From an uncultured Bacteroidota bacterium (lineage in GTDB: Bacteria; Bacteroidota; Bacteroidia; Bacteroidales; Bacteroidaceae): a DNA stretch of 40,677 nucleotides. Below the pieces are notes generated by a model. That model had not been told where the DNA came from. It worked only from the letters and a program-made list of their open reading frames with translations, and did not search any database. A program made the translations under genes and the position numbers. The stretch is taken from NCBI GenBank assembly GCA_947168315.1, contig CAMVLL010000011.1, forward strand, positions 1 to 40,677. Reading direction: 5' to 3'. Positions 10,551 to 20,949 of this stretch are shown here, piece by piece. Numbering within the stretch: the first letter of the stretch is position 1; every line of letters begins with the position of its first letter.

Positions 10551-11585
10551 ATGCAGGAAACGAAAAGAACAGAAATATCTACATTAGGCGAGTTTGGCCT
10601 TATCAAACACTTAACCGAGAACATTCAATTCGTACATCCCGAAACCTGTTATGGTGTTGGTGATGATGCTGCCGTACTTTCATATCCTAACAAAGCAGTA
10701 TTGGTTACCACCGATATGCTGATGGAAGGTATCCACTTTGATTTGGAATATACTCCATTGAAACATCTTGGATACAAAGCAGCAGTTGCCAATTTCTCAG
10801 ACATCTATGCGATGAATGGTACTCCAAAACAAATTACCGTCTCTTTAGCTATCTCAAGACGCTTCAGTTTAGAAGATGTTGAAACATTATATGCTGGTAT
10901 CCGTCTGGCTTGTCAGTCATACCACGTCGACCTTATCGGTGGTGACACAACACCGTCACTCACTGGTTTGGCCATCAGCATAACCTGTATTGGTGAAGCC
11001 GACAAAAATCAGATTGTTTACCGTAACGGAGCTAAGGAAACCGACCTGATCTGCGTCTCAGGTGACTTAGGAGCTGCATATATGGGACTCCAATTACTGG
11101 AGCGTGAAAAGGCTGTCTTCCGAGGACAAAAAGAAGCTAACCCCGACTTTTCCGGAAAAGAATATATCCTAGAACGCCAACTGAAACCAGAAGCAAGAAA
11201 AGATATCATTGAGGAACTAGCACGCTTAGGCATTAAGCCGACCTCCATGATAGATATCTCGGATGGCCTCTCTTCTGAATTGAAACATATCTGCAGTCAA
11301 AGTAATGTTGGTTGCAGAATCTATGAGGATCGCATCCCTATCGACTATCAAACGGCTGTAATGGCAGAAGAGTTAAACATGAATGTGACTACATGTGCCC
11401 TCAACGGTGGAGAAGACTACGAGCTTTTGTTCACTGTACCTCTGACTGAGCATGAAAAAGTTCAGTCGATTAACGGTGTCAAAGAGATCGGTTATATCAC
11501 CAAAGCAGAACTTGGCTGTGGTTTGATCACCCGAGATAATCAAGAATTTGAGCTTAAAGCTCAAGGCTGGAATCCATTATCATAA
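10551..11585 (+). CDS. thiL: Thiamine-monophosphate kinase ThiL
   Basis: 344 aa. It makes thiamine diphosphate from thiamine monophosphate with ATP. The PurM-like fold signatures are present: YGVGDDAAVL (residues 35-44), VTTDMLMEGIHFD, LIGGDTTPS, and MIDISDGLSSEL in the second half. It follows punA with one intervening base (TGA T ATG), so it is the last gene of the sppA operon. No TPP riboswitch is visible, since it has no leader of its own. Copy A of the dispersed repeat begins about 25 bases after its stop, and no separate terminator is evident. Confidence 0.95.
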   Translation: MQETKRTEISTLGEFGLIKHLTENIQFVHPETCYGVGDDAAVLSYPNKAVLVTTDMLMEGIHFDLEYTPLKHLGYKAAVANFSDIYAMNGTPKQITVSLAISRRFSLEDVETLYAGIRLACQSYHVDLIGGDTTPSLTGLAISITCIGEADKNQIVYRNGAKETDLICVSGDLGAAYMGLQLLEREKAVFRGQKEANPDFSGKEYILERQLKPEARKDIIEELARLGIKPTSMIDISDGLSSELKHICSQSNVGCRIYEDRIPIDYQTAVMAEELNMNVTTCALNGGEDYELLFTVPLTEHEKVQSINGVKEIGYITKAELGCGLITRDNQEFELKAQGWNPLS

Positions 11586-11619
11586 GCCGTATTCGACTTC
11601 ATATTAATACCCCTTTCAG

Positions 11620-11724
11620 AAACTCGATGTTTGATTTCAAAAACTTGATTTTTGAGCTCAAAAACTCGATATTTGGCTTCAAAAACTCGAATTCTGAAAA
11701 GAAAAACTCAGTTATAGAAAGTTA
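11620..11724 (+). repeat. Five tandem 21-bp iterons (copy A)
   Basis: Units begin at 11620, 11641, 11662, 11683 and 11704. The first three read AAACT(C/T)GAT-TTTGA-TTCAA with few changes; the fourth and fifth are more degenerate. The exact 21-bp period equals two DNA turns and also seven codons. Confidence 0.8.
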
Positions 11725-12126: not shown

Positions 12127-14073
12127 TTAGAATTGACTCAACAACTTGTTCAGACTCTCTTTTGCATCACCCAACAAGAGGTAAACACCTTCTTTGCGAG
12201 TGTACAACGGATTCTCTACACCTGCATAACCAGGCTTCAAATCGAAATTACAGATAATCACTTCCGGAGCCTGGTCAACATTCAATACTGGCATACCGTA
12301 AATCGGAGTTCCTTCGGCATTACGGGCAGCTGGATTCAAAACATCGTTCGCACCGATTACGACAACTGCATCAGCCTTACCAAAATCATCGTTGATAGCC
12401 TCCATCTCATAGAGCTGATCGTATGGGACATCAGCCTCGGCCAACAACACATTCATGTGTCCTGGCATACGACCTGCAACAGGATGGATAGCAAAACGAA
12501 CATTTGCACCATTAGCCTCCAACTTATCTGCCAACTGTTTCACCTGATGTTGTGCCTGAGCCAACGCCATACCGTAACCCGGAACGATGATTACGTTCTT
12601 CGCAGATGAAAGAACTGAACCCGGAGTCTTCTCCTTTTTATCTTCCTGGACAACTTCCTTGGTTGGATTCATGGATGACATCAATTTGTTCAGACTCTCC
12701 TTTGCATCACCCAACAAGAGGTAAACACCTTCTTTACGAGTGTACAACGGATTCTCTACACCTGCATAACCAGGCTTCAAGTCAAAATTACAGATAATCA
12801 CTTCCGGAGCCTGGTCAACATTCAATACTGGCATACCGTAAATCGGAGTTCCTTCGGCATTACGGGCAGCTGGATTCAAAACATCGTTCGCACCGATTAC
12901 GACAACTGCATCAGCCTTACCAAAATCATCGTTGATAGCCTCCATCTCATAGAGCTGATCGTATGGGACATCAGCCTCGGCCAACAACACATTCATGTGT
13001 CCTGGCATACGACCTGCGACAGGATGGATAGCAAAACGAACATTTGCACCATTAGCTTCCAACTTATCTGCCAACTGCTTCACCTGATGTTGTGCCTGTG
13101 CCAACGCCATACCATAACCCGGAACGATGATTACGTTCTTCGCAGATGAAAGAACTTCGCCTGCTGTTTTCTTTTCTTCCGACTTAGCTGTCTCTACTTT
13201 TTGTACATCATCTTTTGCTACCGCTTCAACCTTTGGCTGAGTAGGAGCCGCTTTCATTCCACCCAAAAGGATACTCATCAGACTACGGTTCATAGCTTTA
13301 CACATAATTTGAGTCAGCAACAAACCAGAAGCACCGACAATACCACCGACTGCAACCAAGAAAATATCGCTAATTGCCATACCGGCAATGGCACCAGCCA
13401 CACCAGAGAGAGAGTTCAGTAAAGAAATTGTAATCGGCATATCTGCACCGCCCACTCGCACGGAAAAATATAAGCCAAACAAAGCAGAAGTGAGCACAGT
13501 ACCAAAGACACACCATCCAATACCCGTCCCCGCTGTTGTTCCAATACAGATAAAGAAAACAGTTGCAACCAACAACACCAAAGTGATAACCGAGTGTGAA
13601 GCCCAGATAATAGGTTTCTGCGGTAAAACACGATGCAGCTTGCCTGCGGCAACCAAACTACCAACCAATGTGATCATACCGACAGCAATCGCAAGTAAAG
13701 AAGTGAACCGAACAAAAGGAATATATCCTTTCATAATCTGCTCACCACTGAACGCAACAAATGTAGCTGATAATATACCAACCAAAGCAGAAGCACCACC
13801 ACCGAGTCCATTAAACAGGGCAACAGTCTGAGGCATTTGGATCATCTGCACCTTACGTGCTATAAAACTACCGATCAAAGCACCAATAATCAATGCCGGA
13901 TAAATTGTCCAAGCTCTTATCACACCAGAGAAGAGCAATGTCATCACCACACCAACCAACATCGCCATTGCGGAAATCATGTTTCCACGAACCGCCGTCT
14001 TTACCTTACTCATGAAAGAGATGCCAATCAAGACGGCAATGGATAGCAATACGCTTAATACTATTTGTGCCAT
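12127..14073 (-). CDS. pntB: NAD(P) transhydrogenase subunit beta with duplicated NADP(H)-binding domain III
   Basis: 648 aa; the family is usually about 460-480 aa. Residues 1 to about 275 are the multi-helix membrane domain II. A charged linker leads to domain III (from Ser309 to about 463), which already completes a normal PntB. A second charged linker and a second complete domain III (Ser489-648) follow. Both copies keep the NADP(H) motifs VPGYGMALAQAQ, GRMPGHMNVLLAE, VVIGANDVLNPAA and GYAGVENPL, and are identical in protein sequence from SSAKNVI to KESLNKL. Their DNA (12146-12616 and 12686-13156) differs at nine positions, all third codon positions. The enzyme couples proton flow to hydride transfer between NADH and NADP+. 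It follows pntA2 after 3 bases. Family call is firm; the role of the second domain is unknown. Confidence 0.93.
   Translation of the reverse strand: MAQIVLSVLLSIAVLIGISFMSKVKTAVRGNMISAMAMLVGVVMTLLFSGVIRAWTIYPALIIGALIGSFIARKVQMIQMPQTVALFNGLGGGASALVGILSATFVAFSGEQIMKGYIPFVRFTSLLAIAVGMITLVGSLVAAGKLHRVLPQKPIIWASHSVITLVLLVATVFFICIGTTAGTGIGWCVFGTVLTSALFGLYFSVRVGGADMPITISLLNSLSGVAGAIAGMAISDIFLVAVGGIVGASGLLLTQIMCKAMNRSLMSILLGGMKAAPTQPKVEAVAKDDVQKVETAKSEEKKTAGEVLSSAKNVIIVPGYGMALAQAQHQVKQLADKLEANGANVRFAIHPVAGRMPGHMNVLLAEADVPYDQLYEMEAINDDFGKADAVVVIGANDVLNPAARNAEGTPIYGMPVLNVDQAPEVIICNFDLKPGYAGVENPLYTRKEGVYLLLGDAKESLNKLMSSMNPTKEVVQEDKKEKTPGSVLSSAKNVIIVPGYGMALAQAQHQVKQLADKLEANGANVRFAIHPVAGRMPGHMNVLLAEADVPYDQLYEMEAINDDFGKADAVVVIGANDVLNPAARNAEGTPIYGMPVLNVDQAPEVIICNFDLKPGYAGVENPLYTRKEGVYLLLGDAKESLNKLLSQF
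12146..12616 (-). repeat. Tandem intragenic repeat, copy 2 (PntB second domain III)
   Basis: 471 bp aligned with 12686-13156 at an offset of exactly 540 bp (180 codons). By eye there are nine mismatches: 12160, 12196, 12241, 12244, 12478, 12517, 12538, 12559 and 12574. All are silent. About 98% identity. Confidence 0.95.
12686..13156 (-). repeat. Tandem intragenic repeat, copy 1 (PntB first domain III)
   Basis: Partner of 12146-12616. The sequences on either side of the repeat, which encode the linkers, are only loosely alike, so the near-identity is confined to the folded domain. Confidence 0.95.
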
Positions 14074-14451: not shown

Positions 14452-15609
14452 TTAAAGACCCATTGCCTCACGAGCACCAGCATGTACCAATTCGCCATCA
14501 ATACATACAAGACTCTTTGCAATTACCTCGTCAGAACGGTCAAGTGCAATCTTACCATCCTTAACCAAGTACTTAACCAAGTTGTACATGTTATTAGAGA
14601 ACATCCATGTAGAACTTGTTGGGAGTTCACCCGGGATATTCTTCACACCCATCAAAGTAACGCCGTGCTTAACTACGATGTCTCCAGCAGGAGTCAACTC
14701 ACAGTTACCACCTTGATCGATAGAGATATCAACGATAACAGAGCCGCGCTTCATTCCCTTAACCATCTCTTCTGTGATAATGATTGGAGCCAAACGACCC
14801 GGAATCAAAGCAGAGCAGAATACGATATCCATCTGCTGGATTGTCTCCTTCAAAGACTCACGCTCCTTAACCAGTACATCGTCTGGTAAGCGGTTAGCAT
14901 AACCACCTTCAGCTATTGCCAATTCAGCAGGGACATTGGTAGAAACTACTTTTGCACCCAAACTCATAGCGTTCTCAGCAGCCGCCGGACGAATATCAGC
15001 AGCATAAGTGATAGCACCCAAACGTTTTGCTGTAGCCAAAGCTTGCAAACCAGCCACACCAACACCGATAACCATTACCTTTGCAGGCTCAATCTTACCA
15101 ACAGCTGTAAACATTTGAGGCATAAACTTTGTCAGGCGGTCGGCAGCCATCAAGATTCCTTTATAACCTGCACATGTACTCATGGAGGTCAGAGCATCCA
15201 TATTCTGTGCACGAGATATACGTGGAATACCATCCAAAGTAATTGCGATAACACCTTGTGCTGCCAATCTCTTAACCATCTCATGGTTTACAGGAGCAGC
15301 CGGGTGGATAAACGTGATCAGATATTGACCCTTATGCATCATCTCAACTTCATGTTTTCCTACTTTCTCATTGAAAAGAGGCTCCTTAACTTTCAAAATC
15401 AACTCAGCTTTCTGATAAATTTCAACTGGATCATCTACCATCTTGGCACCAGCTTTAATGTAATCTTCATCACTGTGCAAAGCACCTTCTCCGGCTGATT
15501 TTTCTACAAGGACTTCAAAACCGTCTTTTACAAATTTACCCACTGTTTCAGGAGTACAAGCAACACGAGCTTCGTCGTGCATAATTTCTTTTGGAATACC
15601 AATAATCAT
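14452..15609 (-). CDS. pntA1: Re/Si-specific NAD(P)+ transhydrogenase subunit alpha part 1 (NAD(H)-binding)
   Basis: 385 aa, soluble domain I. It starts MIIGIPKEIMHDEARVACTP, the conserved N-terminus shared with alanine dehydrogenase. The NAD(H) Rossmann motif GVGVAGLQALATAKRLGA is in the middle, and VDISIDQGGNCE follows. It passes hydride between NADH and the NADP(H) held by domain III of PntB. It is the first gene of pntA1-pntA2-pntB. A -7 element TAAATTTG lies at 15644-15651 on the minus strand, about 35 bases upstream of the start. Confidence 0.95.
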   Translation of the reverse strand: MIIGIPKEIMHDEARVACTPETVGKFVKDGFEVLVEKSAGEGALHSDEDYIKAGAKMVDDPVEIYQKAELILKVKEPLFNEKVGKHEVEMMHKGQYLITFIHPAAPVNHEMVKRLAAQGVIAITLDGIPRISRAQNMDALTSMSTCAGYKGILMAADRLTKFMPQMFTAVGKIEPAKVMVIGVGVAGLQALATAKRLGAITYAADIRPAAAENAMSLGAKVVSTNVPAELAIAEGGYANRLPDDVLVKERESLKETIQQMDIVFCSALIPGRLAPIIITEEMVKGMKRGSVIVDISIDQGGNCELTPAGDIVVKHGVTLMGVKNIPGELPTSSTWMFSNNMYNLVKYLVKDGKIALDRSDEVIAKSLVCIDGELVHAGAREAMGL

Positions 15610-19101: not shown

Positions 19102-20949
19102 TTATTTCTCCCGATAATCTCCATTTGCTTTAATTAATTCAATTAGTCGATCCACCGCTTCTTCTTCCGGAATGTTCTTTTCCAAACACACTTTCCGACG
19201 GTAAAGACTGACCTTTCCGCGAGCAGCCCCGACATATCCATAATCAGCATCCGCCATCTCTCCCGGTCCATTGACAATACATCCCATAATACCGATTTTC
19301 AATCCTTTCAGATGAGATGTTGCTGCCTGGATTCGGGCAATTGTATCCTCCAGATTATACAAAGTACGTCCGCAACCCGGACATGAGATATATTCTGTTT
19401 TCGAAGTACGCAGACGACCGCCCTGTAAGATACTGAAAGCCGTCTCGTCTACCTTCTCATGGGATATATTACCTTGGTTCAACAAGAATATGCCATCACA
19501 TAACCCATCAATCATCAAGGCACCCATATCTGCCGCTGCCTTCACTTGCAGGTTTTCCAATTCATCTTCCTGATAATGCTGGAAGAAAACAACCGGATTC
19601 ATCATGCCTTCGTTCATCAGTTCATGAACCAATGCCCGCATCTCGCCCAAACGATTCACATGATTGCTTTGAACGATGAGAACCACCTCCGGATGGTACT
19701 TCAATCCTGCAATCACCTCATCGTTAAAACCGACATAAGGGATGAACAGGAACTTCAACGTGGCCGGACAATAATGTAGTTCCAACATACGGTTATATGT
19801 GAAAGCCGGATAGACCTGTTGCATGTTTGGTGACCAAGCATCTACATCTACAATTGCAGGAATTGAGGTGTCTCGGTTTTTGGGAAGTTGTGCGCCATAA
19901 TAAACGTAGTCAGGGATAAAGTCAGGATGGATTGTAGATGAACCATCCAATCGGTCTGAGATAACAACCGGCACTTGATCTCCACCAACATTCGATACGG
20001 GTTTTGTTACGCGCCGTGAAGGATGCAAATAGTCGAAGTCAGGAGATTCTTTCGCAGGAATATACGGATGTTTTTCCCGACCAACAAGATAATCACGCAA
20101 CTTCTTCGCAACAGGTATCTCTTTTTCCGGAGCTTCACTTAACGAAACACGGATAGTATCACCTAAACCATCTGCCAACAGCGCACCAATTCCGATAGCC
20201 GATTTGATTCGACCATCCTCACCACCACCAGCCTCAGTCACTCCGAGGTGCAGTGGGAATTGCATTCCTTCTTCATCCATCTGTGCGACTAACAAACGAA
20301 CTGTCTGCACCATGATAACAGTGTTGGATGCCTTAATAGAAATGACAACATCCATGAAATGTTCAGCCACACATATACGGAGAAACTCTATACACGACTC
20401 CACCATTCCTTCCGGTGTATCTCCATATCGGGACATGATACGGTCCGACAGTGAACCATGGTTTACTCCGATACGAATAGCAGTATGATGCTCCTTACAA
20501 ATGTTCAAGAAAGGAACAAAACGATTCCTGATCTTCTCTATTTCCTTTGCATATTCCTCATCGGTATACTCCAAATGCTTGAAGGTACGTCCCGGATCAA
20601 CATAGTTTCCGGGATTGATTCGAACTGCTTCCGCATAATGAGCAGCTACATCCGCCACATTCGGATTAAAATGCACATCTGCTACCAAAGGCGTGTCATA
20701 TCCTTGCGAACGTAATCTACTATTTATCCACTGCAGATTCTCAGCCTCACGAGTGCCCTGCGTTGTCAGTCGGACATATTCTCCTCCTGCCTCAATAATT
20801 CGTTTCGCTTGTTCCACACAACCCTCCGTGTCCATTGTGGATGTATTGGTCATACTTTGTAAACGGATTGGATTGTTACCGCCCAAAGGAGTAGCACCTA
20901 CATGAACCACTGAAGATTCACGGCGGGAATAGTTGAAAAGATCCATCAT
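19102..20949 (-). CDS. ispG: 4-hydroxy-3-methylbut-2-enyl-diphosphate synthase (IspG/GcpE), long form
   Basis: 615 aa; enterobacterial IspG is about 370 aa. The extra length is a central insertion between the TIM barrel and the iron-sulfur domain, as is usual in Bacteroidetes, Chlamydia and plants. The barrel begins with VGATPLGGNNPIRLQSMT. The [4Fe-4S] ligands are Cys523 and Cys526 (CPGCGRT), Cys557 and Glu564 (GCIVNGPGEMADADYGYVG). It catalyses the reductive ring opening of MEcPP in the MEP isoprenoid pathway. It follows purE after 7 bases. Confidence 0.96.
   Translation of the reverse strand: MMDLFNYSRRESSVVHVGATPLGGNNPIRLQSMTNTSTMDTEGCVEQAKRIIEAGGEYVRLTTQGTREAENLQWINSRLRSQGYDTPLVADVHFNPNVADVAAHYAEAVRINPGNYVDPGRTFKHLEYTDEEYAKEIEKIRNRFVPFLNICKEHHTAIRIGVNHGSLSDRIMSRYGDTPEGMVESCIEFLRICVAEHFMDVVISIKASNTVIMVQTVRLLVAQMDEEGMQFPLHLGVTEAGGGEDGRIKSAIGIGALLADGLGDTIRVSLSEAPEKEIPVAKKLRDYLVGREKHPYIPAKESPDFDYLHPSRRVTKPVSNVGGDQVPVVISDRLDGSSTIHPDFIPDYVYYGAQLPKNRDTSIPAIVDVDAWSPNMQQVYPAFTYNRMLELHYCPATLKFLFIPYVGFNDEVIAGLKYHPEVVLIVQSNHVNRLGEMRALVHELMNEGMMNPVVFFQHYQEDELENLQVKAAADMGALMIDGLCDGIFLLNQGNISHEKVDETAFSILQGGRLRTSKTEYISCPGCGRTLYNLEDTIARIQAATSHLKGLKIGIMGCIVNGPGEMADADYGYVGAARGKVSLYRRKVCLEKNIPEEEAVDRLIELIKANGDYREK

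Follow-up and report, generated by a model that had tools for sequence, protein, structure and literature searches.

Tandem domains III in the transhydrogenase beta subunit of an uncultured Bacteroidota bacterium and its relatives

The pntB gene of an uncultured member of the Bacteroidaceae (assembly GCA_947168315.1) encodes a transhydrogenase beta subunit in which two domains III follow one another on a single membrane domain II. The gene lies on contig CAMVLL010000011.1, of which positions 1 to 40,677, the whole stretch of DNA analysed, are referred to here as the window. The tandem is real in the window pntB, and the architecture is recurrent and without description in the open-access literature searched. 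Our best explanation, to which we assign a probability of roughly 0.5, is that the window encodes a transhydrogenase made of three subunits, belonging to a subclass whose loop E reads N-x-D, and that its beta subunit bears, on a single membrane domain, two domains III that are largely interchangeable. The set of observations behind it comprises two complete and conserved copies, linkers predicted to be flexible, recurrence at two to four copies, and equal conservation of first, middle and last copies.

Structure of the pntB gene and its product

The window PntB matches PF02233 with 797.1 bits in two stretches, against a curated Pfam cut-off of 31.7, and the gene contains an internal direct repeat with a spacing of 540 bases (Table 1). 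Neither a stop nor a frameshift, which the sequence-only reading had set as refuting, separates copies A and B within the 12127-14073 open reading frame. The layout proposed in that reading, a domain II followed by two complete domains III in tandem, is thereby borne out, as is its length of 648 aa. Its placement of a full PntB in the first 463 residues requires a small correction, as copy A ends nearer residue 466. It had also described the two domains III as identical in protein sequence, and residues 307-464 and 487-644 indeed agree at 158 of 158 core positions. Across this core the copies differ at 10 nucleotides in 10 codons, all 10 synonymous, an outcome with a chance of about 1e-6 if the differences were unconstrained and independent. 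The linkers around the two copies differ in sequence. The longest exact nucleotide run common to both copies is 233, which paired short reads could bridge, and PntB maps to a single place in the genome, which is 89% complete and consists of 167 contigs.

Table 1. Features of the transhydrogenase genes in the window
Feature	Positions	Strand	Basis
pntB, transhydrogenase beta subunit with two domains III, 648 aa	12127..14073	-	ORF; PF02233 in two stretches, 797 bits; single place in own genome
Membrane domain II, residues 1-275	13249..14073	-	
Linker from domain II to domain III copy A, residues 276-300	13174..13248	-	pLDDT <50 for residues 273-300
Domain III copy A, residues 301-466	12676..13173	-	
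Loop E N429-F430-D431 of copy A, replacing K-R-S/G	12781..12789	-	gap-free alignment to solved structures
Linker between domains III, residues 467-480	12634..12675	-	pLDDT <50 for residues 471-480
Domain III copy B, residues 481-646	12136..12633	-	
Loop E N609-F610-D611 of copy B	12241..12249	-	sequence and alignment
pntA2, four-helix part of domain II, 99 aa	14077..14376	-	PF12769, 101.5 bits
pntA1, NAD(H)-binding domain I, 385 aa	14452..15609	-	PF05222 and PF01262

In the AlphaFold2 model, copies A and B have the same secondary structure and are joined by low-confidence linkers, and structure comparison of the model matches copy B to known domain III structures. A chain with two domains III is not among the structure matches listed, which does not exclude such chains. 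The folds of domains II and III are those of PntAB (E. coli 9l76, T. thermophilus 4o9u and R. rubrum domain III 1pno), and the window shares with PntAB the coupling aspartate, the HPVAGRMPGHMN and PGYGMA motifs and the gene order pntA1-pntA2-pntB. Identity of the model over aligned residues is 38% both to 9l76_A and to 4o9u_D. In contrast to the window, PntAB has one domain III per beta subunit and K-R-S/G rather than N-F-D in loop E. Single-domain PntB proteins of the N type (G001, G022 and the Prevotella bins L019 and L025) belong to the window's subclass and have its kind of loop E, but carry one domain III. Sirtuins (SIRT3/SIRT5) also have the fold in common; they are a different enzyme, and the likeness shows no function. 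Rearranged domain order is known in transhydrogenase from the alpha-beta and beta-alpha fusions of apicomplexans, and Porospora has tandem whole transhydrogenase genes, whereas a repeated domain III within a chain is not described for the apicomplexan fusions in the excerpts of the source that report them (PMC7614955). The sequence-only reading had known of no described enzyme with the window's layout, and the open-access literature searched likewise yielded no description of a tandem domain III in transhydrogenase, within the best-ranked part of longer result lists.

The surroundings of the gene offer few clues. Across ten flanking genes from eight related loci, no common theme emerged beyond AsnC-type regulators in two loci (L007, L045); one of the ten flanking genes had no family match. 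A degenerate 21-base direct repeat of several units lies at 11616-11720, between pntB and a convergent AIRS-domain gene ending at 11585. Elsewhere in the window, positions 19102-20949 hold a GcpE (IspG) open reading frame of 615 aa with two Pfam stretches; long GcpE forms are ordinary.

Loop E and the nucleotide-binding sites

The NADP(H) site of the E. coli enzyme includes K424-R425-S426, a KRS motif located at the NADPH site; specificity for NADP over NAD is reported to be set by loops D and E (excerpts of PMC9529548). The window's N-F-D aligns without a gap to the K-R-S or K-R-G of the E. coli, T. thermophilus, ovine and R. rubrum chains, and the solved chains that match the window all come from K-R proteins among the five alignments listed. 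Every NADP(H) motif had been thought to be kept in the window, which proved wrong for loop E, where both copies have N-F-D instead of K-R-S/G. The change extends to the whole subclass. All 144 domain III copies have N at the first place of loop E; the second is F in 71, Y in 48, L in 15, M in 5, S in 3, K in 1 (L052) and R in 1 (L122); and the third is D in 140, S in 3 and N in 1. The classical K is lost in 144/144 copies and R in 143/144, while classical domains keep each in 75 of 75. Among the class-specific columns listed, no conserved positive residue has been gained near loop E. One three-domain protein (L116, from G757) has C-N-S-S in place of C-N-x-D in all its domains III.

The aspartate of the ADIRP motif in domain I, which we take to be a mark of an NAD-type site, is kept in 82/82 subclass rows. 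Judged by this aspartate and by the missing K-R of domain III, both nucleotide sites of the subclass look NAD-type, which makes the NADH/NADP+ reaction itself a putative one. The pntA1 alignment (14452-15609) also contains class-specific stretches of domain I, at residues of about 68-73 and 94-95, which are mostly gaps in the K-R class. In domain II, the window retains the fold and the Asp, Asn and Arg of the coupling region, and the coupling aspartate is kept in 90/90. The channel histidine is absent from the window at the TM3 place, which is probably Ser41 of pntA2, and at the TM9 place (Asn88). Its loss was rejected as a mark of the subclass because most K-R proteins examined lack a histidine at the same two places (64/74 at TM3 and 69/75 at TM9).

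Occurrence and evolution of multiple domains III

A homologue search, proposed in the sequence-only reading, returned 39 intact PntB proteins with two, three or four tandem domains III from the Bacteroidota, Bacillota, Mycoplasmatota and Spirochaetota. Carriers of at least two domains III include Dysgonomonas hofstadii DSM 104969, three Parabacteroides isolates, Treponema putidum OMZ 758 (a complete genome), and metagenome bins named Clostridia, Candidatus Fermentithermobacillaceae, Haloplasmataceae and Acholeplasmatales. The full set, from a scan of one genome per species and from genome draws, held 170 proteins with enough of domains II and III, of which 158 were counted after five second fetches of the same gene and seven contig-truncated proteins were set aside. 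Among 83 intact proteins with an N-type loop E, 44 have one domain III, 20 two, 16 three and 3 four; 39/83 is not a frequency, because the scan query itself has two domains III and the scan kept the best 80 of at least 585 loci. All 75 K-R proteins examined have a single domain III. In what was examined, multiple domains III are thus confined to the loop E variant subclass.

Some sequences need separate mention. The copy counts omit fragments short of domain II; three of these would be multiple, namely L028 with three domains III, L037 with two and L180 with one and part of another. L043, which has masked letters, and L051, whose second domain III is out of frame, were kept in the counts and in the domain II tree. 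In L051 (3950-5925, a metagenome bin), a domain II-III open reading frame is followed by an overlapping, out-of-frame domain III open reading frame, which may reflect a frameshift or an assembly error. An extra domain III open reading frame, L188, lies near a contig end in G1126 beside the same genome's four-domain gene. Read-through of a stop codon into further domains III was considered because the matches in G378 and G459 ran over the stop, and was dropped since the coordinates of L088 and L027 show the natural end of the reading frame drawn into the match. The NCBIfam equivalog PRK09444 (Re/Si-specific transhydrogenase subunit beta, cut-off 689 bits) is passed by L014 (916.7 bits, four stretches) and L027 (720.5 bits, three stretches), while the window (569 bits) and T. 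putidum PntB (501.8 bits) fall below it, each with two stretches.

The genome draws give a wider view; they overlap (G347 and G1118 yield the same gene), and the centres G453, G456 and G452 were picked for being multiple. In the order draw, 101 of 393 genomes had a PntB match, and the 30 examined comprised 22 K-R proteins and 8 of the subclass, 7 of these 8 multiple with the window counted in. One order-draw member, G316, belongs to the subclass by 60% identity and has its gene divided between two contig ends, each of which bears pieces of domain III. In the class of G453, PntB was present in 15 of 391 genomes, 9 of them subclass (2 multiple, one being the centre) and 6 K-R. The phylum of T. 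putidum yielded a match in 81 of 247 genomes, and among 30 examined there were 17 K-R and 13 subclass proteins, 5 of the latter multiple, again with the centre as one. The family of G452 gave matches in 18 of 61 genomes: 8 multiple (one the centre), 8 single and 2 truncated. In the window's own genus, with 61 genomes, many incomplete, PntB was matched in four: the window has two copies, G001 and G022 have one each, and in G044 contig ends interrupt the gene within domain III at either side, breaks that a repeat could cause.

Single and multiple forms appear to interchange often. On a domain II tree of the 83 subclass proteins, the single/multiple state changes at least 19 times and copy number at least 27 times; on a domain I plus II tree of 68 proteins, which omits L043, L051, seven rows on long branches and six lacking a long domain I, the minima are at least 13 and at least 23. 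Both trees are quick, often weakly supported (28 of 86 inner branches of the domain II tree are under 80) and give no direction, and the counts are rough minima on those trees. In both trees the window is surrounded by single-copy relatives (G001, G022 and two Prevotella bins), which makes a recent duplication probable. The two-copy L167 and L168 are separated from the single-copy L175 by a domain II dS of only 0.06-0.07. In five Treponema genomes the inter-copy linker is recognisably the same, and the tandem there was therefore probably shared by descent.

Conversion-like tracts are present in some copies: 20 of 86 copy pairs show clustering of identical codons at p<0.05, with about 4 expected when codons are treated as exchangeable and pairs of one protein as independent; for the window, p is 0.012. 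The inter-copy dS of L133 is 0.23 against 0.45-0.70 to same-place counterparts, and that of L134 is 0.21 against 0.28-0.67, a likeness that conversion would give. No excess likeness of copies is seen in L018, L132 and L136, with within-protein dS of 0.39-0.54. Between related genomes the dS of domain III is often, not always, above that of domain II, which would fit exchange too.

The copies are under similar constraint. At 62 columns near-invariant in 44 single-copy subclass domains, the mean number of misses is 0.49 in first, 0.55 in middle and 0.54 in last copies, compared with 0.52 in single ones. Inter-copy dN/dS within proteins is 0.04-0.57 in 85 of 86 pairs, with one saturated; for the pairs of L021 and L171 whose dS reaches about 1 or more, it remains near 0.1. 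Differences between first and last copies are concentrated at the edges of the domain: per column, a mean of 24 of the 39 proteins differ in the initial 11 residues and 8.9 in the final 22, against 1.2-4.1 in other regions. The 61 inter-copy linkers are 8-35 residues long (median 15), with a high content of A, S, E, K and T. At residue 461, within the last helix, 17 of 39 proteins have Leu in the last copy and another residue in the first, and none shows the reverse, the sole stand-out (p 1.5e-5) among 564 residue-by-column tests uncorrected for kinship; it may reflect the last helix running on into the linker, and the equivalent residue is Leu in both copies of the window. In L027 and L029 the third copy stands apart, with 53-60% identity to the others and a loop E of its own, YNLDRAP, and is the best candidate for a specialised copy. 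These patterns suggest that most copies can bind nucleotide and dock, and they appear to fit largely interchangeable copies better than a division of labour, with residue 461 counting against.

Mechanism, alternative explanations and meaning

Hydride transfer requires domain III to contact domain I, and proton coupling requires it to contact domain II. The two domains III of a dimer cannot face up towards domain I at once, and in a low-resolution crystal structure of the complete enzyme one of them points up and the other down (excerpts of PMC5742237). An ovine structure titled "double face-down", with both domains III down, is among the structure matches, and its title indicates that strict up/down alternation is not settled. 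In a beta subunit with two domains III, each copy would be able to use two docking sites, one under domain I, where hydride is transferred, and one on domain II, where proton-coupled nucleotide exchange takes place, and one copy could exchange nucleotide at the channel while another of the same chain reacts with NAD(H). Alternation between protomers might then no longer be needed. The sequence-only reading had offered three candidate roles for the second domain III: one domain facing each side, more NADP(H) sites, or a spare. The dimer would hold four nucleotide carriers, and up to eight in relatives, giving a greater local supply of loaded domain III and letting the two half-reactions overlap. 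With four to eight carriers per dimer most would wait undocked, so the gain would be in the supply of loaded carriers and would be most useful if loop E grips NADP(H) less tightly. More tentatively, the altered loop E may loosen the grip on the 2'-phosphate, with the extra copies making up for it; for comparison, the NADP(H) affinity of isolated domain III is sub-nanomolar and that of the whole E. coli enzyme is in the micromolar range (excerpts of PMC5742237). Recombination between the repeats would raise and lower copy number, and conversion would keep some copies alike. Against this explanation, single-copy members of the subclass are as common (44/83) and occur in the window's genus (G001 and G022), so the extra copies are dispensable; the NAD-type look of both sites, the asymmetry at residue 461 and the divergence of the L027/L029 third copy also weigh on it.

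The main rival is copy-number drift, in which recombination makes nearly harmless tandem duplications that gene conversion keeps alike and that bring no benefit. We regard it as rather unlikely, though the frequent single/multiple changes on the two trees (at least 19 and at least 13), the excess of clustered identical codons and the closeness of L167/L168 to L175 speak for it. Useless copies should decay, yet those at dS of about 1 or more keep dN/dS near 0.1 (L021, L171) and full sets of invariant residues, an objection softened by the fact that conversion from an intact copy would slow decay. The single copy in every K-R protein examined further argues that drift is not general to the family. 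A still less probable explanation is that the copies are specialised, one catalytic and another regulating the enzyme or docking a partner enzyme. The YNLDRAP third copy of L027/L029 and the one-directional difference at residue 461 speak for such roles, but the window copies are identical over 158 residues, and the one position that stands out lies near the domain end and may be a helix or linker effect. As for the tandem being an assembly artefact, the window comes from a draft genome of 167 contigs and has single-copy relatives in its genus, G001 and G022, of the kind that the sequence-only reading had set as refuting. Such relatives do occur, but they do not imply an artefact, because the two cores differ by 10 synonymous codons and the layout recurs in other phyla; the unlike linkers add to this. 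Moreover, ten multi-copy genomes (G378, G757, G975, G880, G1014, G456, G868, G1135, G1128 and G1121), the complete Treponema putidum being included, have a pntB contig whose length is close to that of the genome, which indicates that assembly error is not the general cause. We consider an artefact exceedingly improbable.

The boldest rival is a switch of domain III to NAD(H). Here, the N-x-D domain III would bind NAD(H) and the enzyme would be an NAD(H)-handling proton device, such as a leak valve, a sensor or a hydride carrier to a partner; the multiplied domain III would serve as a carrier and the enzyme would not be an NADP+ reducer. This switch strikes us as improbable, less so than specialised copies and more so than drift. 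The complete loss of K, the near-complete loss of R and the frequent gain of D across the subclass, with no positive residue gained nearby among the columns listed, favours the switch, as does the reported role of KRS and of loops D and E in NADP/NAD specificity (excerpts of PMC9529548). However, domain I is also NAD-type by look, which would make the net redox reaction zero; backbone or other side chains may bind the phosphate; and the coupling aspartate of domain II is kept throughout, as though proton coupling were still important.

In the transhydrogenase dimer, the division of work between the two domains III is still debated (excerpts of PMC5742237). A broader reading of our analysis, which we offer as speculative and rather unlikely, is that anaerobes possess a widespread, unrecognised transhydrogenase subclass that lacks the classical 2'-phosphate clamp and works on one to four interchangeable domain III carriers tethered to the chain, the nucleotide possibly being NAD(H) or a loosely bound NADP(H), in which a tunable, recombination-driven domain number sets rate or coupling. 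The N-type subclass calls into question the automatic naming of these proteins as ordinary NAD(P)+ transhydrogenase in redox models of anaerobes. The natural two-, three- and four-domain enzymes, with a near-identical single form (L175 compared with L167/L168), allow the number of carriers to be varied without engineering from scratch, and this copy-number series lets one ask whether alternation between protomers is obligatory. Transhydrogenases with multiple domains III therefore provide a natural test of how the enzyme works.
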